The notes under the pieces were generated by a model, which was not told where the DNA came from, ran no database searches, and saw nothing but the letters and a program-made list of their open reading frames with translations. This document shows, in pieces, positions 1-64,000 of a stretch of 64,000 nt of DNA. Source of the DNA: a candidate division SR1 bacterium (GTDB taxonomy: Bacteria; Patescibacteriota; Gracilibacteria; Absconditabacterales; Absconditicoccaceae). How positions within the stretch are numbered: position 1 is the first letter of the stretch; each line of letters opens with the position of its first letter. The position numbers and the translations under genes are program-made. The stretch lies in the NCBI GenBank assembly GCA_026397515.1, contig JAPLUU010000019.1, forward strand, positions 1 to 64,000, in the 5' to 3' direction.

Positions 1-3000
1 ACTATAATATGGGTTGCCTCCTGCGTATTTCGTTCATCGTAAGAGTCTAGAAAGAATAGTTCCAAACTGAGCTCTATCGACTTCTTGCTCGGGATTAAAA
101 TTTATATTCATAGTCACACCATCACTTGCATATCACATAAGTCACAATCTACATGCAGCCATTGCATAGTATTGGCTTGTTTTATCAAATGATTTCATAT
201 CAGTGAATGTACATGTTGCTCATGTAGAGACAGTTTTTCATAACACATTAATTGCAAAATTACTTATCATCTTCGCCATATCTTTTCTGAGTAATGATCA
301 TTGCATATTTGCTTTTTGGATAGTAGGCATCGTAGTGATATCATATCCATATGCTCGTAAATAAGCATTATTAAGCTCTAATGAAAAGAGAGATCATAAA
401 ATACTTGCTGCTGGTTTATTAGTTGCACCATGAAATGGTAGTACATGCACAATCTTTTCTATCAATGAACATTTTCCACAAAGAGTATCATAATAACTAT
501 CGCTGCAATCTCTTTGTACAGGACATTGATCTTTGATTAATGATGGAGATCAATCTCCATTACCTCCACTGGGTGAAGATGGTGGTGTTACTGGTGGTGT
601 AGATGCAATCACATTGACGGTCCTAAAAGCATTTCATGTATTACCAGCATTATCGATATAAAAATATTCAATGGTATATATTCCGACAAGTCATGTATTT
701 ACCGTTCAACTTAAGTTGGCAGTACCAGTACCATCAACATTGTCTATCCATGTAGCTCATAGTTCGGTGTAGGTGTTGCCATACACTGTATTTATAATTC
801 AAGATCCATTGAGTGTAATTACAGGAGATTCATCATCTGCTATATAGAAAATACTATCATTTATACTAATATCAGCGGTATCATCATTGTCTCGATCAAA
901 TTCTGCATAGACAGTTTTGACACTAGTTTCACCAGTAAATATGGTCCATCATGCTGTTGCTGTATAACCTGCCCAATTACTTCGTGTGATACCATCATTA
1001 GAAAATCTCATCTGCATGGCTTCTGGGGTGGTAGAAACATTGAGTGTAACATTTCCGAAAAAAGTTGAAGCAGCATCATTATTGATAGTAAATAATCACG
1101 TCATAGAACTTTGAGGAAGTGTAGCAGCAAAATCAGTAAAGTGGCTAGTGGTGAATGATATATAAGGAGCTCAGTTATTTTCCGTTACGAATGTTTGGGT
1201 CTGTGGATATCGTGTCACTCCATTATCTTCAGAATAATAAATATTGATCATATCTCATATAACCCCACTTGGTGCATTTACCGATAATGTAGCAATTCAT
1301 CAGCTAAGATACAATAATTCCTGACTTCATATATTAAATGCAGTAACAACATTTTCATCATTTATACTTTCTATTGATTTGGTTGCTGGCATAGAAATGA
1401 TGCCTGTATAATTAGTCGTATTATCTGCTTCCTTGAATTGAGTGTCAGCTTGTATATCCAATTGAATATTTTGATTTTTGAGATTCAATGTTGTAGGAAT
1501 ATATCCACTCGTTTGACTAAGTGAAATAGCATTGGATCATACAAGATCTCATCAGCTCTGGACATATCATTTACTAGTAAATTCATTTTTCATAATAGTA
1601 GTATCACTAGAATTTGGAAGGATAACGAGATCACTATCACCATACAGACTCGCAATATACGGATCCGCTTGATTTTGATATGTAGTAAATAATCACCCAA
1701 CAACTATTTCTTTATTATTTTTAATAGTGATTGTATTTACTGTATTATTAAATCAACTTCCCACATCAAAGTTCGGGTCTATAATACCATCACTATATAG
1801 GCAGATGATTCTATTTGCTGGGAGAGATTTATAAGTAGTAAATGCTCCTCAGACTAAAATCTTACCATTATCTTGTATGGCTAAAGTATTAACAGAAACA
1901 CTGAAACCACTATTGGTAACAAAATCAGTATCTCTAGATCAGTCAGTATTAAGGCGGATAATCCTTACTGCTGGAGCTCATTGATACGTCGAAAAGTTTC
2001 CTCAAACGACTATTTTCTCGTCATTTTGGATAGCCAGCGCTGCTACATTTGGACCACCAAAACTATTTCATATAAGAAATCATGTATCTATGGTTCCATC
2101 GCTATTTGTACGTACAATTTTATTTGCTGTTGTTCAACTATAGGTAGTAAAAGATCATCCTACGATTATCTTACCATCATCTTGGATAGCTAGTGCTTGT
2201 ACATTACCTGGAAATCCGTTTCCCATGAAGAATCCTGTATCTATACTTCCATTACTATTGAGACGGATAATCCTATTCGCTGTCGTTCAATTATAGGTAG
2301 TAAAAGATCATCATATGATAATTTTGCTATTGTCTTGGATAGCTATAGTGTTGATGGTGTTGTTAAACCCACTTCATATGATAAATGAATTGTCTATAGT
2401 CCCATCTGTATTCAAACGGACAATTCTATTCACTGTCGTTCAGCTATATGTGGTAAATGCTCCTCAAACTAGTATCTTTCCATCATTTTGAATCGCTAAT
2501 GTTGAAACAGTATTGTTAAATCCATTCCCCATTAAGAATCAGGTATCTGCAGTTCCGTCAGTATGTATACGGACAATCTTATTTGTTACGATCCCATTGT
2601 ATGAAATAAATGTTCACCCTGCAATGATTTTGCCATCAGCTTGTGCTATGATTGCTTTAATTTCATTATCAAATCCATTTCAGACAGCAAAACTTGGATC
2701 TTTGGTACCATCTCCATTCAAACGGGTAATCCTACTAACTGCTACACCATTGTATGTCGTAAATGTTCCACCAACCAAGAGTTTCCCCCCGCTTTGTATA
2801 ACTAAAGAATTAAACCCAATTCACATAAGGAATCCAGTATCTATAGTTCCATTAGTATGTAGGCGAACAACTCTGTTTGCTACTGCTCAGCTATATGCAG
2901 TAAATAGTCATCAGATCACTATCTTCCCATCATCTTGGATAGCAATATCATTGATGATTTCGTTAAAACCACCTCCGCTAACGAAACCAGTATCTGCACT

Positions 3001-4083
3001 TCAATTTGTATTTAGACGCATAATATCAATACCATCTGTTTCATGGTACAGTGTAAATGCTCATCCCACAATGATTTTTTCATCATCTTGTAATGCTAAT
3101 GCAGTTACATTTGCATTAAACCCATTTCAAATATGGAAGTCGAGATCTCTTGATCAGTCGCTATTGAGACGAACAATCCTGCTAGCTTCTTTACTTTCAA
3201 TTCGTGTGTTATCCATTGTCCAAGTATTCCATTGTCACCAATTTCCTCCATTATCTCAACAACTTATCTCATCTAGAGAAACTCCATCATCACAACTATA
3301 TGCTTCACAGGTTACTTGATCTAGAGAAACTCCATCGCTACATGATCCTACACTTTCACAACTTACTTGATCGGTATATTGAGTATCACTACAGGATCGG
3401 GTGCTACCAGATCATCTAAAGAATGAAAACATACCACCAACTACGATTTTCCCATCATTCTGTATGAGAATAGCTTTCACAGTGTTATCAAATCAGTCTA
3501 TAATATCAAAAGTATTATCTCTACTCCCATCAGTATTAAGACGGAGTAATCTCTCCGCACTTACTCATTTATATGATGTAAAATCTCCTCCTACTACGAT
3601 TTTCCCATCATCCTGGATAGCTAAAGCATAGAGAAGGGCAGAGCCACCAAGGCCAGTTCCACTATCGAATGTGTCGTCTCTCGATCAATCACTATTGAGA
3701 CGAATTAACTGATTCGCTGGTATGCCATTATACGTATGAAAGTTTCCTCCAATGAGAATTTTTCCATCTATTTGTATAAGTATTTTTCGTACTATTCCAT
3801 CAAATCAGCTTCAGATATCAAAGGAGTAATCATTTGTTCCATCAGCATTAAGACGAATGATTCTATTCGTTACGACTCATTGATATGAGGTAAAATTACC
3901 TCCAATAATAAGTTTCCCGTTATCTTGAACTGCTTGGGTATATATACCTCCGTTAAATCCTATAGGTGTTCATCTATCAAAGCTAGGATTCATACTCGCT
4001 GGGTTAGCAAACGTTTGGGCACATAAAAAAATACCTATTATTGTTATAAGAAGAGTTGCCGATTTGAGTAAGATTTTTTTCAT
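1..4083 (-). CDS. Large secreted beta-propeller surface protein with C-terminal S-layer-like domain (C-terminus beyond window)
   Basis: The start at 4083 gives a signal peptide (MKKILLKS, hydrophobic stretch, A-N-A-like site near residue 30). About a dozen repeats of the type D-G-K-I-V-V-G-G-x-F followed by R-L-N-x-D-G-S fill residues 40-800; this is the DUF5122/delta-60 beta-propeller repeat. A cysteine-rich low-complexity insert lies at nt 3210-3420. An Ig-like DUF5011 domain (GATWIDNVDGTG) is near residue 1100. The last 160 residues contain R-A-Q-F-G-T-I-L-S-R-L-L and resemble SLH-type anchoring domains; the same module ends the LRR protein at 21054-24752. The frame is open to position 1, so the gene continues outside the window. 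Many glycines are UGA. Family calls are from motif recognition; the ligand is unknown. Confidence 0.75.
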
Positions 4084-28166: not shown

Positions 28167-30650
28167 TTACTTATTCAGATGATTATCTGCTCGTCATTTG
28201 ATCAACGGTACATTATCCGTCATGACCATGCGGACTCATTCATGATATAATTTTTCTAAATCGCCAGTGGTGTCGACCGTATAGACGACTAATGTTTTCC
28301 CGATATTGGTAACGTCTTGAGCCATGGTTGGGGTAATCAACGCCTCTGGCATAAGGTAGTATTGATGATTCATATTCGGAAGTGTTGTAAGTTCTTCGAT
28401 ATTATAGGTATCTCGTCCAGCAGTAATATTTTTATATGATCATAAGATATAGGTTGCTTCTTTGTCATAACTAGTAAAGATGACTTTATCTTGCATTCAT
28501 AATTTTTGAACGGTTTTAATCGCATCTATCGTTTCCTGTTCTGCATCTTTTGGATCATATACTTTTATCTCTACAAAATAATAATCAAACAGACCATCGA
28601 CACCTTTCAACATTTCTTCTAAGGTAAGTATCGGTTCACTATTGGTAAGCAGACAGTTCTTTTCTAACCAATCGAAGGTATGCGTTCTGACCATTATATT
28701 ATTTCCACATTTAGTAGAATACACGTTTTCTCCATGCATAACAATATTTTGTTTATCTTTAGTATATGAGACATCAAATTCTATACCAGCTGCGCCATGC
28801 TTTTTGGCCAACAAAAATCCTGACAAAGAATTTTCTGTAGTATCTAGTGGTGATCATCTATGTGCTATGACCGTCATCATATTGGTTCATGAATTACCTC
28901 ACGAATTATTCCCCGAATTTTCTGATCATGAGCCATATTCATAAGATATATAGGAAGAAAGATATCTGTAAATAAATGGATCAGTTCAGGCAATTTCTGA
29001 GATATTATCAAAGGTCTTGCCTTGAGATCAACTTAATCAATATACGATAGTGTAAGCATTATTATAATAACGAGAAATGGAAATAGCCCAGTTTCTTTTT
29101 TTGGCCGATGAAAATACATCGTTAGCTATTTTGGAAACCATCACGGCTCATTTCCCTACAAGTTTTTTGAGTCCATAAAAAAAGTCTGTATGCTGTACAA
29201 TATTTGTATTCACGGTACCTGGAGTGATTCCCGTACCTATGATAGTAGCAAGTCATCTGACATACCAATATGGTCCCAAAGCATCTTTTTCTTTGGGTTC
29301 TAAAGGTTCCATCTTTCTATGATCGCTGACAATGACAAGAATTCCATTGTCAAAGAATTTAGCTTTTTTGAGTTGAAGATAAAAATAAAATAAACTTTTG
29401 TCTACATATCTCAGTGCATCTTTTTGTGTGGTTCCATACGGAGTATCATATGGTTTATGTAAGGAAATAGTTTGTAAGACAGCGAGATATGATCAGGTCT
29501 GGAGCTTGATAGTCTGTAATGTTTTATTATAGAGGCTGTGATCTGGAGCAGAATCAAACGTATATGTTTGTTGACCAGAAAAACTTTCTTCACCGATAAT
29601 ATGAGTAAATCCTATGGATGAAATGAACGCTCTCTGATTGAGAAATTCGAGTCCAGCAGCACTAATAAATATGGGCGTATATCATTGTTTACTGAAAAAA
29701 ACCGGTAATGAATCCATGCTACTTTTATAGCCATCATAAGAAGAAGTTTGTCGTCACATGAGTTTAAGTGGTTCTATACCAAGCAATAATCCTATATGCG
29801 CAGTGTCAGAAGTTCATCCATTAGCGATAAAGTTGGTGAAAGTGATACCTTGTTTTTGAATGAGATCAAAATACGGAAGATTGTTGTTTACTCAACCGAT
29901 TCTCAGTGAATCGATCGGTGAGAGAGATTCTGCAAAGACGACAATGATATTGGGTTTCTTTTGTTGTCACTTTATATTCTTGAAAAAATCTTGATACGTA
30001 CTAGGCATATTAGTTACCGACAATCACTGTATATTTTCTCTTATAGCAGAGAAGTTGATCGAAATAATATTTTTTGGAATCGAAGAAAATCATAATGGGG
30101 CATATATTCGGACACCCAGACTTGCTATAAAAAAAAGCAAAAAATATCCAAGCAAAAAAGATTTTTTATTTTTTTTGAATCTTTGCCCTTGAACGAAAAA
30201 AAATACGAGCAATACTATTACTCACAAAACTAGTATACCATTGACGATCATTCACGAAAATATTTGCAATCCAGAACCAAGAAATTGATTCATATCCAAT
30301 ATCGAGAGTCTACTCTGAAAAAAATACATCGTAAATATATCTAGTACAAAGAGCAAAAATATAATCATGATGATAATGTTATTGATGATTTTGATGACTA
30401 TTTTTTTGAGTAATGCATTGATTCCTACCAATCCCAACAAAATAAGACAGACCAAAAAATCACTGACAAAATAGCCGAGATAATGTGCTAGCGTCGCTCA
30501 GAACGTTGGTTCTTTAAAGACTTCTGAATATGCCAAAAAGATAAATATCTGTTTTACAAAGAGACAAAAAAATGAGAGCACCACAATAGTTCTCCCAAAA
30601 AATGGGGTTGTACGTACAGCATTGAGTATATAAGAAAAAGTTTTTTTCAT
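28167..30650 (-). CDS. Fused LtaS-like phosphoglycerol transferase and glycerophosphodiester phosphodiesterase
   Basis: 827 aa. Residues 1-190: five TM helices. Residues 210-510: an alkaline-phosphatase-superfamily domain as in lipoteichoic acid synthase, with I-V-V-F-A-E-S, N-G-G-T-S-D-T-A (catalytic Thr), S-L-H-K-P-Y and S-D-H-R. Residues 600-825: a GDPD domain starting V-I-A-H-R-G and containing I-E-F-D-V, H-G, and F-V-E-I-K-V. A Gly/Ser/Asn linker joins them. The first half would polymerise or transfer phosphoglycerol outside the membrane, and the second would cleave glycerophosphodiesters. Many glycines, including one in A-H-R-G, are UGA. Confidence 0.8.
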
Positions 30651-30699
30651 AGCCTGTGTTTTTGTTTTGGGAAGACAAAAAATAATGAAATTATAGTAT

Positions 30700-30817
30700 A
30701 CCGATTGTTTTCGAAATCTATAATCACTTCATTGCATTCGTGCTTCTAGTTTCTCAAATCGTCGGTATAAATTCGACATCATAAAAACTCGAAATATTTA
30801 GAGTTTTTATTGCGTCT
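30700..30817 (+). repeat. Palindromic element, 118 bp, family B, intergenic copy
   Basis: Aligns along its whole length, at roughly three quarters identity by eye, with 31558-31676. Shared blocks include TTTCTCAAATCGTCGGT and TTCGACATCAT. Internal inverted repeats (ATAAAAACTC/GAGTTTTTAT) form a hairpin. Lies between the LtaS-GDPD start and the nuclease gene. Confidence 0.75.
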
Positions 30818-30854
30818 TATGTTAGTTATTCAACCAAAGTTTACAACCATAAAA

Positions 30855-30925
30855 GTTAGCACCCGGGTGAGAACTTTTGTTATTTGGCTTTTAAAGCTAT
30901 TTTACTTACCAGTTCACCCGGGTGC
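30855..30925. repeat. 71-bp repeat with CCCGGG ends, copy 1
   Basis: Begins GTTAGCACCCGGGTG and ends CACCCGGGTGC, with an AT-rich middle that includes AACTTTTGT and AAAGCT. Same length and ends as 35917-35987. It overlaps the last codons and stop of the nuclease gene. Confidence 0.75.
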
Positions 30926-32251
30926 TGTACTTCAGTTTCCACCCCTCAATGTTCGACTACTATTCTTCTGTACAGTGTCACCAAGTTGGTCGAGTGATAA
31001 TTTATTTTCTTTGACTAATTTCTGCAATTTGAATCTATCGACTTCCATCGCTTCATTCAATACTCACAATGTCTGCAAGACATTTTTTAGCGCATCTTTG
31101 TCAGTTATACTGATACTTTCACTTTGTGAAGCTGATATTTTATACACATTTCCAAACAATTTCAACAGATTATTCTTCTCCAGATATTCGACCAACAAGA
31201 CCTTGATCAGCTCCTTATCATTTTTTGCTTGCGATTCTTGTTTACTTAATGCAACATATTCATCGACCAATCATTTCACGGTTTTGGGACCCAAATCACT
31301 TCCCACCACCTCATCATCAAATTTCAAATGCGCCCACAAAGGACAGAGTGAGTAGTATTCACAATATTTGCAATAGACGTTTTCTTTCGGCTCGAAACAT
31401 TTTTTATCACCCATATTATAGCTGAACTTTTTTGCTTCGATATCGATTATAGTATCTGCATATTTTTTCGTGACTGTAGTCAAAAGTTCAGGAGTAATCT
31501 CCCATTCGTCCATCAAGTCAAAATGGAGATAGTGCAATCTGGCTTTGATTGTTTTGAACCGACCTGTTCTCGAAATCTGAGATCACTTCGTTTCACTCGT
31601 GCTAGCAGTTTCTCAAATCGTCGGTTTAATTTCGACATCATGAAAACTCTCAGTGCTTCAAGTTTTCATTGTGTCTCAAATAAAGTACTTTGCATAATTC
31701 TGTTGTACCCCTAGACCATATAAAGTAAGTTGTTCTCTATATTCTTCCTTACTTTCCGGTGGCAGATTTTTGTTCGTTTTATAATCATTGATAACAAACG
31801 TTTCTCATTCTTTATCGAGTCTGTCGATGAATCCACGAAACTTTGTCTGGTCATTGAGCTCAAAAATTATCGACGCTTCTGTTGCGACAACACTGATGCC
31901 TTCAAAAGGACTATACTTGTCATAATAGTTCGCGACATAATGGATACCTCTGCGAATATAATCTTCGAGCGTCTGTTCTCATTTCATTTCAAGCGGCTTT
32001 TCTTTAGTCGCCTCCTTGATTTCACTATCTCGTTGGTCTTTGAACTTCACCAAAAGTTCATCCTTGCTCGGGATTTTAAATACATTTATCTGATTATATA
32101 ACCATTCCAATGCTGCGTGGACGCTATGCCCGAGAATCAAATCTGGACTCGATTCAAATTCTTTTTCCTGGATTTTATCAACGTATTTATATTGGTACTT
32201 GCGTGGACATTGGAGAAAGGTTTGTGTTTGTGAGAATGAATAGATAGACAT
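30902..32251 (-). CDS. RecB-family PD-(D/E)XK nuclease with Fe-S cysteines and an in-frame repeat insertion
   Basis: 449 aa. N-terminus S-F-S-Q-T-Q-T-F-L-Q-C-P-R-K-Y with a first cluster cysteine; nuclease motifs G-H-S-V-H-A-A-L, F-I-D-R-L-D and V-I-N-D-Y-K-T; later C-K-Y-C-E-Y-Y-S-L-C completes a Cas4/AddB-type four-cysteine pattern. Residues about 192-231 come from the family B palindromic element and contain four UGA codons. The last eight codons and TAA come from the CCCGGG repeat. Probably a DNA-repair or replication nuclease; no cas genes are near. A TTG at 32254 could be used instead of ATG 32251. Confidence 0.8.
31558..31676 (+). repeat. Palindromic element, 119 bp, family B, in-frame inside the nuclease gene
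   Basis: Second copy of the 30700-30817 element. Terminal ACCGAC has a partner GTCGGT further in, and ATGAAAACT/AGTTTTCAT form a 9-bp stem. It is read in frame on the minus strand as part of the nuclease, between G-V-Q-Q-N-Y-A-K and K-T-I-K-A-R. Confidence 0.8.
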
Positions 32252-32367
32252 CAATTCAATTACGAATTAAAAATTACGAATTACGAATATAATCTTTGTA
32301 TATGGTTTTATAAAAGGTTTACAAGAAATGCACCAAAAACTCCCCTTAAAAAAAAGTCCCTAAAAAT

Positions 32368-32395
32368 TTGACAAATATAAAAAAAGAAATATAAT
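32368..32395 (+). promoter_or_regulatory. Promoter of the radical SAM gene
   Basis: TTGACA (32368-32373), 16-bp spacer, TATAAT (32390-32395), 36 nt before the ATG. Confidence 0.8.
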
Positions 32396-32430
32396 ATTAT
32401 ATAAATGTTTTATTATATTACCAAAATTAC

Positions 32431-34449
32431 ATGGCAAATAAAGACAGTGGTGTCTCGTTAACGCCAGAGCAATACCAAGAAATCTACGAATGTCGAAATG
32501 GTAAAGGTAAGAGTTGTATAGAGACAAGAAATATTCCTGAAAGCAAAAAAAATTGTGCGCTCGGTCATATTATCGGTGGATTGAGTACGGAAGAATTACT
32601 CGGTGCTATTAAAACCCCCCAAGAAAAAGAACCAGAAAAAAATATTCCTCAGGAGATATATAATAAAAGATTAGAATTCGTCGAGTCTATTAAAAAAGAA
32701 TATTGATATGATCTGCCCTTTCAAAAACTCGACCTTCCTTTTGAAAAATTAGAAAGTGGAAAAAAATGATATAAATGAACTAGAGTAAAAATAGATAAAG
32801 AAAGTAAATATGCTCATCAGAATGATAGAGAAGGAATTATTACAGAGGAGGATGGAAGTTCAAGGCTTCCATTTCACGTGCGTTTCGATGATGGATATGA
32901 AAATTCTTATGGGTCGAGTGATCTTGTGCGTATCAAAGAGAAAAGTGAAACTGAAGCAAAAGATGTAGAGAAAAAAAATGAGACAATAGTCAGTGATATC
33001 GCAAAACAAACAGACGAAGATTTCTTTGCCAAGAGTGCTGAGGTGATTTTTGATGCTTTGTCCAAAGACCAAGAATTCAAAAACAAGATGTTCCCCAATG
33101 AAAAATTTAATAAAGGCGATAAGATTGTGATGAATAAACTTGCCAACGATGAGTATGGTTATACTCAGGAATGAAGTACAGGAGAAATACTCAATAAGGC
33201 CGGAAAAGAATTCAATGTTCGTTTTGATCATATCACCGGTGGAGACTATTCGTGATCAGATCCTACCCGAGAGGTAGGACCAAAATATATGATCAACACA
33301 ACCAAGAAAAGTGATAAAAAAGTAACGTTGTCAGATGTAAGTAAAAAATTACAAGATATCGTAAAATGATTACAAGAGAAAAAAGAATCAAGAGGTCGTG
33401 GTGATGAGAGTGCATCGAAAAAATCGTTAACAACAAAATTATTACTACAAGAAAATTTTTTATTACCAGGAGATAAGGAGGGAAATTATGTACTCAATTA
33501 TCGTGAGATGGTAAAATTCGTAGCGCCTGATCTTTATGCTGCTTATGGAAATAAAGAGTTATATAGTCAGGAAGATATGTGTGCGCCTCCATCAGAATGT
33601 CATCCAAATGTACTCAAGTTTGAATTGAGTCACGGGTGTAATTATAATCGCTGTACCTATTGTGATCTCTACAAAAATGTAAAATATTGTCCTAGGACTT
33701 TTGCACAATTTAAAGAACATGTAGATAAGGTGATGGAAGCGGTAGGAAGCTATAAAAATAAAATAGAAAGATTATTTATCGGTGGTGGTAACGCGCTTGC
33801 AGTCGATGACAAAACACTTTTAGATTCTCTTAATTATGTAAACAACAAACTTCACCCAAGAAAGATATCTATGTATGCTAGGACACAAGACATAAATCGT
33901 AAATGAGCTGAATGAATAGAAAAACTTACCGATGCATGATTGACTAATTTGTATCGATGAGCGGAAACATGATCAGATGAGATATTGAAATATATCAAAA
34001 AATGAACGACACTCGATGATATGCTCAAAGCATCCAAGAATCTTGCAAAAACAGATATAAATTTATCAGTAACGCTTATGCCAGGAATTTGAGGAAAACG
34101 TTTCGATGAAGAAAATATCAAATGAACAGTTAAATTTCTCAATGCTACAGACACCAAATATATTACCTTTATGGCAATCAGTCCTTCTGCTAATTCAGAA
34201 TATGATAACATTATGAAAGATGAACTAATGGCAGGTACCAATAGACCACTTTCAAATGTTGAGGTGGTAAAACAAATAAAGGAGATTTTAAAATGACTTG
34301 AACCAAAAGGTCAAAAGATAGGTATGTACTGACCAGAAATCCATGAAGTAGATTATAATCCTTTCTATTTCAAGATTACTTTTGATAGAGATGGTAAGGA
34401 AGAGGCTATTAATCTGTGTGATGAATATCTCAAAACTCATGTAATATAG
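32431..34449 (+). CDS. Radical SAM protein with duplicated SH3-like N-terminal modules
   Basis: 672 aa. The radical SAM domain spans about residues 385-640: G-C-N-Y-N-R-C-T-Y-C holds the cluster cysteines (C-x4-C-x2-C, the form seen in COG1032 proteins with N-R-C-T-F-C), then G-G-G-N-A and a late G-A-E-T-G-S. The 380-residue N-terminal half has two similar beta-rich segments (G-T-R-V-K-I-D, F-H-V-R-F-D-D-G-Y and G-D-K-I-V-M-N, F-N-V-R-F-D-H-I), each near 60 residues and SH3/Tudor-like. About 20 UGA codons. Substrate unknown. Confidence 0.75.
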
Positions 34450-35912: not shown

Positions 35913-35916
35913 TAAG

Positions 35917-35987
35917 GTTAGCACCCGGGTGCTAACTTTTGTAATTTAGCTTAATAAGCTATTTTTCTAGCTATTCTACCCGGGTGC
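35917..35987. repeat. 71-bp repeat with CCCGGG ends, copy 2
   Basis: GTTAGCACCCGGGTG start, CCCGGGTGC end, middle with AACTTTTGTAATTTAGC and an inner AGCTTAATAAGCT palindrome. Same length as 30855-30925. Starts 4 bp after the Nudix stop. Confidence 0.75.
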
Positions 35988-58692: not shown

Positions 58693-58769
58693 TTTTCTAA
58701 AAAAATGCGCATATACTTATGTTACTATATAAAAAAAAGAATTTTTACTTTGATAACGCTAGTAGTAAT

Positions 58770-60215
58770 ATGCAGTGAAAACACAGTAAATATATATTCA
58801 AATATTTTGTACGATTTTTCCTAGGACTATCGTGAGTTTTTTTTGTAACGACAGCATTCAATATTGCGCCGATTGCACCAAATGCAATCCAATATATCAA
58901 AACAATTTTTTTGACCAGTAGTGGAACAAATACTTCTGCGACAGGAATTATTCTTGAATGATTATGAGGAGATGTATGGTTGAAATGAAGCATGACCATA
59001 GAGAGTTTACCCAATGTTCCGGTTTTGGGAACTAATGCTAGTGGAAAATTAATCTCTTCGACAAGTGGTGCAGTATATAATTTCATCAGTGGTTTTATCG
59101 TTGATTGATGACCACAATGAATCCAAGGAAACACATGAGCAACATGAGCAACATGAATACAATGAATTCAAGGGATACAAGGAATTCAATGAGTACAATG
59201 AATTCAATGATCACAGTGAATACAAGGAAACACCTGAGCGACATGATTTCTTCAGGCGGGTATAACATGAGCGACCCCTTTCTGGAACGGATTGTCACGA
59301 ACAACAACCAGTACAAATATATTTAATAATTGATGAAATATAGGAATTTGAATAGCCAATCCGACAGATAATAAATTACAAATTGCATGAAATATTACAT
59401 CATGGTGATTTATAGCAAGAGGAAGTTCGGTAACTGCAGGAGCAATTGATGCAACAGCTATGGGAAATAAAACACAAGCATTAGGTACAGGCTCTACAGC
59501 TATGGGGGTCGAATCAAAAACATATGGTATTGCATCCACAGCTATGGGAAGTTTGGCTATAGCATATGGCGATTACTCGACAGCAATGGGAGAAACAAGC
59601 AATGCCAATGGAAATCATTCTACAGCAATGGGGAAATGAACATATGCTAATGGTACAGGTTCTACAGCAATGGGCCGACAGACATATGCAACCGGAAATT
59701 ATTCAATTTCAATGGGTAATGCAACCCATGCGTTTTGAGATTATTCTACGGCTATGGGTAATGCGACACATGCAAATGGAAATCATTCGACGGCAATGGG
59801 AGAATCTACAACTGCTAATAGTACAGGTTCGACGAGTATGGGATTTACTACAGTAGCTAACGCTAAATATGGACTTGCTATAGGAACTTTCAATGTGTGA
59901 TTATCTACCAGTATTTTTGAAATAGGAATAGGAGTTGCAGGAACACCAAGAAATGCAATGACCGTGATTGCAGAAAATGGAAAAGTCGGTATTTGAACTA
60001 CATGACCATCTGCTCTATTGACGGTAGAATGAGGTATTAGGCCGATATTGTTATCTAAAATACTAAAAGGAAATTCTGCGACTGATCCTTGTACAAATAA
60101 TCCATCAGATTATCCAACATGAACTATCTTTTATAATACATGAACTGACATAGTATGTTATTGTAATAATGCTCATCAGGCTATGAAGACAAGTTGATTA
60201 TCATGTGATGAGTAA
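58770..60215 (+). CDS. Collagen-like and YadA-head-like surface protein 1
   Basis: 481 aa, invisible in the standard code. N-terminal hydrophobic anchor (G-L-S-G-V-F-F-V-T-T-A-F-N), a beta-rich part, 16 Gly-X-Y triplets rich in G-I-Q and G-A-T, a conserved G-A-T-P-F-W-N-G-L-S-R segment, then about nine repeats of S-T-A-M-G-x-x-T-x-A-x-G-x (Hep_Hag/YadA-head type), ending with a tail containing cysteines. In the collagen stretch I count 13 UGA among 17 Gly codons. Likely a trimeric fibrous adhesin. Confidence 0.8.
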
Positions 60216-60253
60216 TTATTCATTACGATACATACACAACAAAAAATATTACA

Positions 60254-62422
60254 ATGTTTTATTCTCAAAATAATATCGTGATAGTATCTAGCAAAAAAAA
60301 ACAATCAAGAAAAAATTCTATGGGCTTTATCAAATGAGCTACATTATTTTTTCTATGATTATCGTGAGTTTTTTTTGTAACAACAGCATTCAATATCGTA
60401 CCTATAGCACCAAATGCAATCCAATATATCAAAACAATTTTTCTGACGACCGATGGAAGTAACACTTCTGCGACAGGAATTATTCTTGAATGATTATGAG
60501 GAGATGGACGATTCAAAAATAGTGTAACAGTAAATAATTTACCTAATGTTGTCGTAGTAGGAACTAATGCCAGCGGAAAATTAATCTCTTCGACAAGTGG
60601 TGCAGTATATAATTTCATCAGTGGTTTTATCGTTAATTGATGACCACAATGAATCCAAGGAAACACATGAGCAAGATGAGCGACATGAATACAGTGAATT
60701 CAAGGGATACAGTGAATTCAATGACCACAATGAATCCAATGAAATACATGAGCGACATGAGCAACACTAGAACATGAACGGTCTTGAACAACATGGTTAA
60801 GATTTAAACTTCCGAATGGAGAACGAGAACCCTCATTTATAAATTTGCTGTGACCGATAGGAAATACATGAGCGATGTGAACATCATGATACGCTGTAGT
60901 AATAAATATTATACAGACCTGAGCTGAATGAACAAATGGACAGTGTGCTAGTACGGGGAATATAATAGGATTTTACGCTGACAAAAATTATGATTTAGCA
61001 TACACATCAGGAACAGATACTCTATTATGATCTACAATAATGTGTTCGGATTGAGCAACATGACCACAGTGAATCCAATGAAATACATGAGCAACATGAC
61101 CACAATGAATCCAAGGAAATACATGAGCGACATGAGCAACAGGTATACAATGAATACAGTGAATACAATGAATTCAAGGATTAATAGGATTAACATGACC
61201 ACAATGAATCCAAGGAAATACATGATCGACATGAGCAACAGGTATACAATGAATACAGTGAATACAATGAATTCAAGGATTAATAGGATTAACATGACCA
61301 CAATGAATCCAAGGAAATACATGAGCGACATGAGCAACAGGTATACAGTGAATACAATGAATACAATGAATACAAGGATTAATAGGACTAACGTGACCAC
61401 AAGGAAATACATGATCGACATGAGCAACAGGTATACAATGAATACAGTGAATACAATGAATTCAAGGATTAATAGGATTAACATGACCACAAGGAAATAC
61501 ATGAGCAACATGACCACAGTGATCGATAGGAAATACGTGAGCTACTTGATCTCAAGGAATCCAATGAATTCAATGAATTCAATGAAATACGTGAGCGACA
61601 TGATTTCTTCAAGCAGGAATAACATGAGCGACACCTTTCTGGAACGGATTATCACGAACAACAACCAGTACAAATATATTTAATAATTGATGATATGTAG
61701 GTATTGGTGGTATAATAGTACCCAAAGCACCATTACAAGTAGTAGGTAATTTCATTGCAGGAAACACGAATAATGATATCACTATAACTAGTGTATATTC
61801 AAGTATTTGATGATGAACGGGTAATTTTATTAATGCTGTCTGATATGGAAATAGCATTGTCGGTGGAGAGAGCAATCTAATGCAATATGGATCTACGGGA
61901 TATACATGAACTAATATCTACAATTCAACTATTCTATGATGATATAATAACAAGATCCTTGGTCTTTTAGATCCTGTGTATAAAGATTTATATACGGGTG
62001 CTATCTATTCGAGTTTTGCTGCAGGTAATGGTGCTCAAGTAGCACATACAAATACATTTGTACGAAATAGTACTACATGAACATTTACCTCTGGAAGACC
62101 ATATTCTTTCTTGATAAATGCACCATACTCATCCGTGGACAAATCACCGGGATTTGGTTGAGTGGGTATAAATACAAGATTTCCAAATGCTGCCTTGGAT
62201 GTAAATGGAGATATAAGATGAAGTTGAAATTTAGATATAAGTTTAAATATAACCGCAAATACTTTAAATGTTGGTCTATCAACGACTACTCAGACTATAA
62301 AAATGTTGACAAATCTTATAACCGGTGGGGCTGCTTGCCCAGAAGCAGGGGTAATAACATATAATTGAACTAACTTTTATGGATGTACAAGCAGTTATAT
62401 ACGAACACAATTGGATAATTAA
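60254..62422 (+). CDS. Collagen-like surface protein 2
   Basis: 722 aa. Paralogue of protein 1: the same anchor (K-G-A-T-L-F-F-L-G-L-S-G-V-F-F-V), the same A-V-Y-N-F-I-S-G segment, and the same G-A-T-P-F-W-N-G-L-S-R junction. Its Gly-X-Y region is much longer and interrupted by a non-collagen segment (about residues 175-255). The C-terminal 250 residues have G-G-G-T-G-N-type loops and end T-Q-L-D-N. Nearly every third codon in the repeats is UGA or GGA. Follows protein 1 by 38 bp. Confidence 0.78.
61094..61480 (+). repeat. Tandem 99-bp coding repeats in surface protein 2
   Basis: Units start at 61094, 61193, 61292 and 61391 (the last 9 bp shorter), each encoding 33 residues of Gly-X-Y with G-L-I-G-L-T at the end. 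In most units, G codons use TGA at fixed places. Such repeats favour slippage and length change. Confidence 0.85.
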
Positions 62423-62552
62423 AAATTCTACTCTAGTTGATGTGGGTGATGTATATATCATATGATATTTGTTTACTGATTATTAACCATCATATCATGA
62501 GATTATCCATCTTAAAATAATATTACATCATAAAAATACAAAATAGCAAGTA

Positions 62553-62582
62553 AAACTGGACCTAAAAGCCCAGTTTTTTTGT
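62553..62582 (+). terminator. Terminator after surface protein 2
   Basis: AAACTGG, ten-nt loop, CCAGTTT, T4 and more. Confidence 0.85.
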
Positions 62583-62674
62583 TTTTCTTATGACCAGGAG
62601 TATACTTATAGTAAGCAGAAAACCAAAAAATAAGTTACTATATCTTCTAATATTTATTATTTACTAGTACAAAA

Positions 62675-64000
62675 ATGAGCTTCATAAGCAAAAACTTACA
62701 ATCAAAGAAAAGCGGTCTTAGCTTCATCAAATGAGCTACGTTATTTTTTCTCTGAATGTCATGTATACTCTTCGTAACCAATGCATTCAATGTTACACCA
62801 TCAACAACAAATGCTGTACAATATATTCAGAGTATTTTCCTGACAACTGATGGAAGTAATGCAGCAACAACAGAGATTTCTCTCGATGGAACAAATGGAA
62901 ACTGAGATTTTGCTGGAACAATAACAGGAACAACGATATGTCTTCCTAATGACCCAACTCAACCATGTAGAGATCAATGGCCTACAGGAGGTACAGGAAG
63001 TGATATCTGGTCTACTTGAGCAGGAGGAAAAATATATTATAATACATGAAATGTAGGTGTTGGAACAGCTACTCCATCATACAAACTTGATGTAAACTGA
63101 AGTGGAAGATTTAATAATAATCTAATAGTAAATGGAACAACAACAGTAAATGATAATGTAAACTTTAATGTTGGTAATGCATATGCTTCTCGGGCATGAT
63201 TTTGATTTTTATGAAAATGATCGCTTGGAAATGAATTCTGATTAATGTGAATTGCTGATGATTATATTGCAGTAAAAGACTGATCAACATATAAATATGG
63301 AAATGATTGATCATTGAATATATTAAGTAATGGAAATGTCGGTATAGGGACACCTACACCATCTACTCAATTAGATATTGTGCTAAGTGGTTCAGAACAT
63401 CTACGTCTAGGAGATAGACCTTCAGATTCTCTTCCACGAATTGCTTCTACTAGTACATTAGATATTTTTTCACAAGAAGATATGAATATAAACTCGTATA
63501 AAGTTTCTATATGAAGTACTCACTGAATATATGTAGAATGAGGAATAATGTGAGGATGAAATGTTAATAGAGTAGGTATCGGGACAGATACACCAAATTC
63601 TTTGTTACATGTAGCTCAATCTGGTAAGGCCCAATTCGGTGATAATTTATTTGGATATTCAAATAGCTATAATGGAATTATACAATCACCAGTAAGTGCT
63701 GGATTAGTATTTAATACCAATGGTGCTAATACAAGGATGTTTATAAATGCATCTTGATATGTAGGAATCAACCAAGTATCGCCTACAGCGAACTTAGAAG
63801 TAGTGGGAACTGTAAAAATGTTAACAAGTATATGAGATGAAGTGTTGTGATATACAGGTAATAATAATCGGTTATTCCCTCAATGAGTGACTTCTCCCAG
63901 CTTGAATACATGATTGAATACGGATTCTATATGGTATATAGAGTGTAATGATTCAACCTCAACATGACTACTATTGGTTATATGATATACCTGAGATCAT
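62675..64000 (+). CDS. Surface protein 3 of the same family (C-terminus beyond window)
   Basis: At least 442 aa, open to the window end. Starts M-S-F-I-S-K-N-L with the shared anchor (F-I-K-G-A-T-L-F-F-L-G-M-S) and Q-Y-I-Q-S-I-F-L-T-T-D-G-S-N. The rest is Asn/Thr/Gly-rich with repeated V-G-I-G-T-x-T-P-S motifs (three or four copies), a pattern common in phage-tail-like and bacterial fibre proteins. No collagen triplets yet. About 40 UGA codons. Confidence 0.72.

Follow-up and report, generated by a model that had tools for sequence, protein, structure and literature searches.

We report a dispersed two-hairpin repeat of about 125 bp in the genomes of candidate division SR1 (Absconditabacteria), one copy of which lies in frame within a RecB-like nuclease gene. 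With a probability that we put at about 0.83, it is a small non-autonomous mobile element whose genic copies are read through as a polar linker. Its dispersal, conserved structure, clean in-frame insertion at sites that are empty in orthologues, strand and frame bias, and in-frame UGA codons are observed directly. The window is the 64,000-nucleotide stretch of DNA analyzed here, from contig 5 of the source genome (G000), a 1.21-Mb draft in which TGA is read as glycine. Its features are listed in Table 1.

Table 1. Coordinates of the nuclease gene, the repeat copies and the neighboring gene in the window
Feature	Position	Strand	Details
RecB-like PD-(D/E)XK nuclease gene, host of the insert	30902..32254	(-)	450 aa; 10 recoded codons; probable ATG at 32251-32249
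126-nt insert (42 codons), read in frame	31559..31684	(-)	FIGDTMKTGSTESFHDVEIKPTIGETASTSETKGSQISRTGR; four TGA codons; absent in 22/22 aligned orthologues
Hairpin 1 of nuclease copy	31625..31684	(-)	TTTGAGACACAAT ... ATGATGTCGAAATT; model R1, 77.9 bits; covarying stem
Hairpin 2 of nuclease copy	31556..31624	(-)	ACCGACGATTTGAGAAACT ... AGATTTCGAGAACAGGTCGGT; models R2, R3; covariation
Second full-length copy	30698..30825	(-)	Between nuclease and next gene; model R3, 118.9 bits, E 9e-22; TAG in the frame of the genic copies
Large membrane protein ORF, gene next to second copy	28167-30782		

The nuclease has orthologues in more than 20 SR1 genomes, and its ORF is open only when TGA is read as glycine. 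A Pfam PDDEXK_1 match (E 6.6e-30) covers residues 10 to 309, with the insert inside the domain; a search of the nuclease against the PDB gave no match up to E=1. The original prediction had an element at 31558-31676 that adds residues without breaking the frame and brings four TGA codons onto the coding strand. The element, the unbroken frame and the four codons all stand, but comparison with relatives corrects its extent to 126 nt at 31559-31684. Those 42 codons lie between ...NYAKY and FKTIKARL..., and in 22 of 22 aligned orthologues, all lacking the insert, the flanking codons are directly adjacent, forming an empty site; in a protein search with 59 relatives, query residues up to 191 directly adjoin those from 233 on in the orthologues. 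Homologues that carried the same residues without repeat DNA would speak against an insertion; no homologue carries these residues, and the inserted DNA is a dispersed repeat. Judged solely by where it lies, after the QxxxY helix and before the conserved stretch that follows, the insert would form a surface loop. A single-sequence AlphaFold model of the nuclease was unusable (mean pLDDT, 34).

The element is built from two neighboring hairpins whose 2x2 internal loops are G/A-rich and conserved. Hairpin 1 (about 57 nt) has the general form TTGAGACACAAT-stem-loop-stem-ATGATGTCGAAATTATA, with 2x2 GA/GA and CA/GA internal loops, and hairpin 2 (about 65 nt) has the form ACCGACGATTTGAGAAACT ... AGATTTCGAAAACAGTCGGT; by covariance model, the nuclease copy runs from 31556 to 31684. 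Because the letters of the internal loops are conserved, the element has a strand, and its top strand is the sense strand of the nuclease. Of the four in-frame TGA codons in this copy, two arise from the conserved GA internal loops. Covariance analysis gave compensatory support for 11 of 18 pairs in hairpin 1. For both hairpins, in an unfitted alignment of the G000 copies, 24 of 40 pairs are compensatory (72 cells versus 26 in shuffles); across 109 copies from several genomes, 38 of 40 are (739 cells versus 218 shuffled), a figure that leans towards structure since that alignment was fitted to the model. The many copies in the genome and a stem covariation far beyond shuffled controls exclude chance. 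Rfam 15 covariance models gave no match up to E=5 in window positions 29000-33000. The ends of the element do not form a single inverted repeat, and junctions at sites with orthologues show possible duplications of 2 to 3 bp only (TT, TAT, AAG).

The homologous intergenic copy predicted at 30700-30817 was recovered with slightly wider limits (Table 1) and is 80% identical to the nuclease copy over 112 nt. The neighboring membrane protein ORF could start inside this copy (MMSNLYRRFEKLEARMQGSDYRFRKQ...; window 30651-30782), but MKKTFSYIL (about 30651) seems a more natural start than a site inside the element. Just downstream of the nuclease lies a second palindromic repeat, AGCACCCGGGTGA ... TCACCCGGGTGCT (window 30852-30925 and 35914-35987), which appears to encode the last residues of the nuclease (...GGNGSTAPGGTGK). 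Elsewhere in the window, positions 1750-3930 hold an array of roughly 153-nt repeats that are 60 to 77% alike, probably a repeat protein gene, and positions 58758-62929 contain many short coding repeats, 9 nt or multiples of 9 nt in length, together with duplicated blocks of 200 to 300 nt.

The search for further copies that had been proposed was productive. The nuclease copy finds 33 places in G000 by blastn, and covariance models find 50 or more; the genome holds about 22 full-length copies (E<1e-10) and about 34 of hairpin 1 only. Strong hairpin-1 copies number about 50 in G000 and 3 to 32 in each of the eight other genomes of the genus. Among 41 relatives scanned, hairpin 1 also occurs outside the genus, with 27 copies in G010 and 5 in G022, and G011 and G043 have one marginal match each (E about 0.003). 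The full element matches in 11 of 12 genomes searched, with G002 being rich (39 matches). Its range thus covers 9 of 9 genomes of the genus and two neighboring SR1 genera; in a phylum-wide sample, the other 144 genomes had no full-element match at E 1e-8 or better. In named records, exact pattern matches fall only in candidate division SR1 (Absconditabacteria) genomes or a lake-sediment bin labeled uncultured bacterium. A pattern scan of viral contigs gave two exact matches, which we attribute to chance; neither contig has an R3 match. Hairpin-1 copies also occur in tandem about 70 nt apart, two in G000 (L131:1536-1680; G000:C15:18035-18168) and four in G006 (G006:C63:13512-13783).

About 110 full-length copies were screened, with their flanks, for long ORFs under code 25, and 107 were classified. 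Twenty-three of these 107 are genic, all on the coding strand. Besides the nuclease, hosts include a glycosyltransferase, PrsW protease, GatB, MiaA, an FtsJ-like methyltransferase, an HI0933-like protein, CorA, a HAD hydrolase, an RlmL-like methyltransferase, a DEAD-box helicase, ApbE, metallophosphatases and a uracil-DNA-glycosylase-like protein. Empty sites were also found in orthologues of CorA, a metallophosphatase and the glycosyltransferase, and in alignments with their PDB homologues, the inserts of MiaA and GatB have no counterpart. The PrsW genes of G000 and G008 carry inserts at different points, each being empty at the other's point, and in G005 the metallophosphatase orthologue carries a separate insert of its own, elsewhere in the gene. 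In five G000 genes compared with orthologues, the insert measures 126 to 129 nt (42 to 43 codons), always a multiple of three. No insert compared in this way is common to two species of the set, so the inserts are young, short-lived or both.

Because these are draft genomes, short repeats could have been wrongly joined into genes during assembly. The chance that this accounts for the inserts is negligible: they recur in frame in independent assemblies from different sampling sites and laboratories (Lac Pavin, groundwater, lake sediment) and keep the same strand, the same frame and a frame-keeping length.

The hairpins might instead be functional RNA or DNA sites, for instance for mRNA stability or near terminators, with genic copies kept for regulation. 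The strong covariation would fit this account, as would the position of the shorter copies in G000: 16 of 34 hairpin-1-only copies, versus 0 of 13 full-length ones, lie directly behind the T-run of a rho-independent terminator on the same strand (L006, L011, L014, L017, L021-L023, L025 and other loci). We nevertheless consider it quite unlikely, since the genic inserts differ between close species and fall at unrelated sites in unrelated genes, which looks like dispersal and not like a conserved regulatory site. The terminator adjacency itself points to either a preferred target or a role connected with terminators for the hairpin-1-only copies.

Reading frames were compared with all copies anchored at hairpin 2, using one forward frame, F1. 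This frame is free of TAA and TAG in 23 of 23 genic copies versus 24 of 84 others, and it is the frame actually read in 21 of the 23; the other 2 (MiaA and an O-methyltransferase) use a second frame. Since genic status was first recognized by an open frame, the count of open frames is partly circular, whereas the choice of one frame in six and of one strand is not; with the open frames of the non-genic copies as reference, the binomial p is about 1e-8 for strand and about 6e-7 for frame. The peptide pattern of the preferred frame is shared by 21 of 23 genic copies. Peptides are polar in the forward frames and more hydrophobic in the reverse frames, which may explain the strand bias. On the copy tree, which has few resolved branches, genic copies are scattered (15 changes versus 21.2 in shuffles).

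Among the 23 genic copies, 20 have in-frame TGA in F1 (mean, 2.6), which leaves only 3 that the standard code could read. Some open forward frame exists in 71 of 107 copies under the SR1 code versus 12 of 107 under the standard code. One subfamily of 21 copies, supported on the copy tree, has TAA or TAG in F1 in 19 members, and none of the 21 is genic, compared with 23 of the 86 other copies (Fisher p=0.006). UGA-bearing copies live in genes; UAA-bearing copies do not. The original prediction had held that the loss of one stop codon makes such insertion tolerable. These data support UGA=Gly as an enabling condition for readability but not as a cause or strict requirement, given the 3 genic copies without TGA and the Rickettsia and Wolbachia elements that exist under the standard code.

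The frame evidence also bears on whether the peptide is made at all. The element could be a very small intervening sequence that splices itself out or is processed away at the RNA level, or the ribosome could bypass it. On the sense strand of its host genes it has a fold that is strong, conserved and RNA-like, and in GatB, MiaA and FtsJ the insertions break up conserved domains; moreover, recognition by open frame would leave spliced or bypassed copies hidden. A removed element, however, would need no stop-free frame, and the bias towards stop-free F1 among genic copies disfavors an intron or bypass. Every length verified against orthologues is a multiple of three, the TAA subfamily is kept out of genes, a script search judged by inspection revealed no recognizable copy with internal TAA or TAG splitting a gene, and the element region has no Rfam match. 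We regard removal or bypass as highly improbable.

As to how the element moves, it could be a REP mobilized by the only Y1 (RAYT) transposase that the genome encodes. The substrates of RAYTs are hairpins of one DNA strand, and REP hairpins have one conserved strand polarity, as does the SR1 element, although at about 125 bp it is longer than REPs. A RAYT-like gene is present at G000:C14:6034, and Y1_Tnp matches occur in 6 of 11 element-bearing genomes versus 5 of 25 others. Even so, this origin is unlikely. The hairpin-1 copy nearest to that gene is about 2.2 kb away, outside a REP-like flanking position, and what surrounds the RAYT genes in both G000 and G005 is another palindrome, CACCCGGGTG. 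Nor does the presence of Y1 genes follow that of the element closely: the element-rich G002, as well as G004 and G006, have no Y1_Tnp match, in assemblies that are incomplete.

The CACCCGGGTG palindrome and the RAYT-like Y1 gene are themselves probably the REP/RAYT pair of SR1. The Y1 gene of G000 (L062:2008-2499, on G000:C14) lies among CACCCGGGTG palindromes, one of them inside its own C-terminal coding region, and 10 copies surround the Y1 gene of G005 (L300). The exact palindrome occurs 3 times in the window, where none is expected by chance.

Under the preferred reading, a mobile element translated where it lies in genes, the repeat would spread to many sites in SR1 genomes, probably as folded single-stranded DNA or RNA mobilized by an enzyme acting in trans. 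Genic insertions would survive mainly when they are on the coding strand, have a length that is a multiple of three and offer one particular frame without TAA or TAG. Translation by the ribosome would then turn the insert into a polar, roughly 42-residue linker (consensus ...GxIPTTGExxSTNEVKGLxISKAVR...), in which the conserved UGA triplets appear as glycine, and the translated insert may be tolerated as a loop.

The closest parallels are the Rickettsia palindromic elements (RPEs), which are about 100 to 150 bp long, are present in many copies both between genes and in frame within unrelated conserved genes, and are read there as conserved peptides (PMC10969869, PMC3767692, PMC2229807); for one guanylate kinase with an RPE, translation and activity have been demonstrated (PMC2229807). 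The similarity in spirit to RPEs noted in the original prediction is borne out, the likeness being one of kind, drawn from descriptions of protein-coding palindromic repeats and not from a homologous sequence family. RPEs, above all RPE-1 to RPE-3, and the SR1 element are alike in size, palindromes, copy number, in-frame genic copies and conserved peptide; the SR1 element is a multicopy repeat of about 125 bp found in frame, with a preferred frame, in unrelated genes with empty orthologues. An RPE, however, forms one long stem from its two ends and the SR1 element two separate hairpins, in an unrelated lineage (SR1, CPR) with UGA=Gly and with in-frame UGA in most genic copies. Wolbachia palindromic elements, likened here by description, are likewise in-frame palindromic inserts in conserved genes, including recombination nucleases; inserts of this type lie in frame in Wolbachia addA, addB and priA, apparently without inactivating them (PMC4224334). 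Unlike the SR1 element, they are alphaproteobacterial and use the standard code.

The Neisseria 107-bp element has an open-frame form in genes and a stop-containing form between them (PMC2229807), the same split as the SR1 subfamilies. Bacterial MITEs with open frames (Neisseria 107-bp, ERIC, Yersinia YPAL/RU-2) are, like the SR1 element, small non-autonomous hairpin elements; the SR1 element differs in having no clear terminal inverted repeats across its whole length, and no related transposase was found. In the literature searched (open-licence papers), such elements are not described for SR1, for other CPR bacteria or for organisms with reassigned stop codons.

In its behavior the SR1 element appears to resemble the palindromic elements of Rickettsia and Wolbachia, in a lineage that is recoded and unrelated to theirs. 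This independent case from a recoded phylum offers several empty sites and a strict strand and frame bias, and it carries an internal control, in that the TAA-bearing subfamily is shut out of genes and UGA-bearing copies are not. The survival of selfish hairpins inside proteins thereby becomes a testable question. In practice, annotation that takes UGA for a stop would cut these inserts off or label them wrongly. We suggest only tentatively that UGA=Gly opened the coding space of SR1 to an element with structure-forced UGA, so that a code change altered the habitat of a mobile element; the system offers a concrete illustration of the way in which recoding can change how far such an element reaches. 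If the proposed mechanism is true, the element spreads ready-made 42-residue linkers through the proteome.
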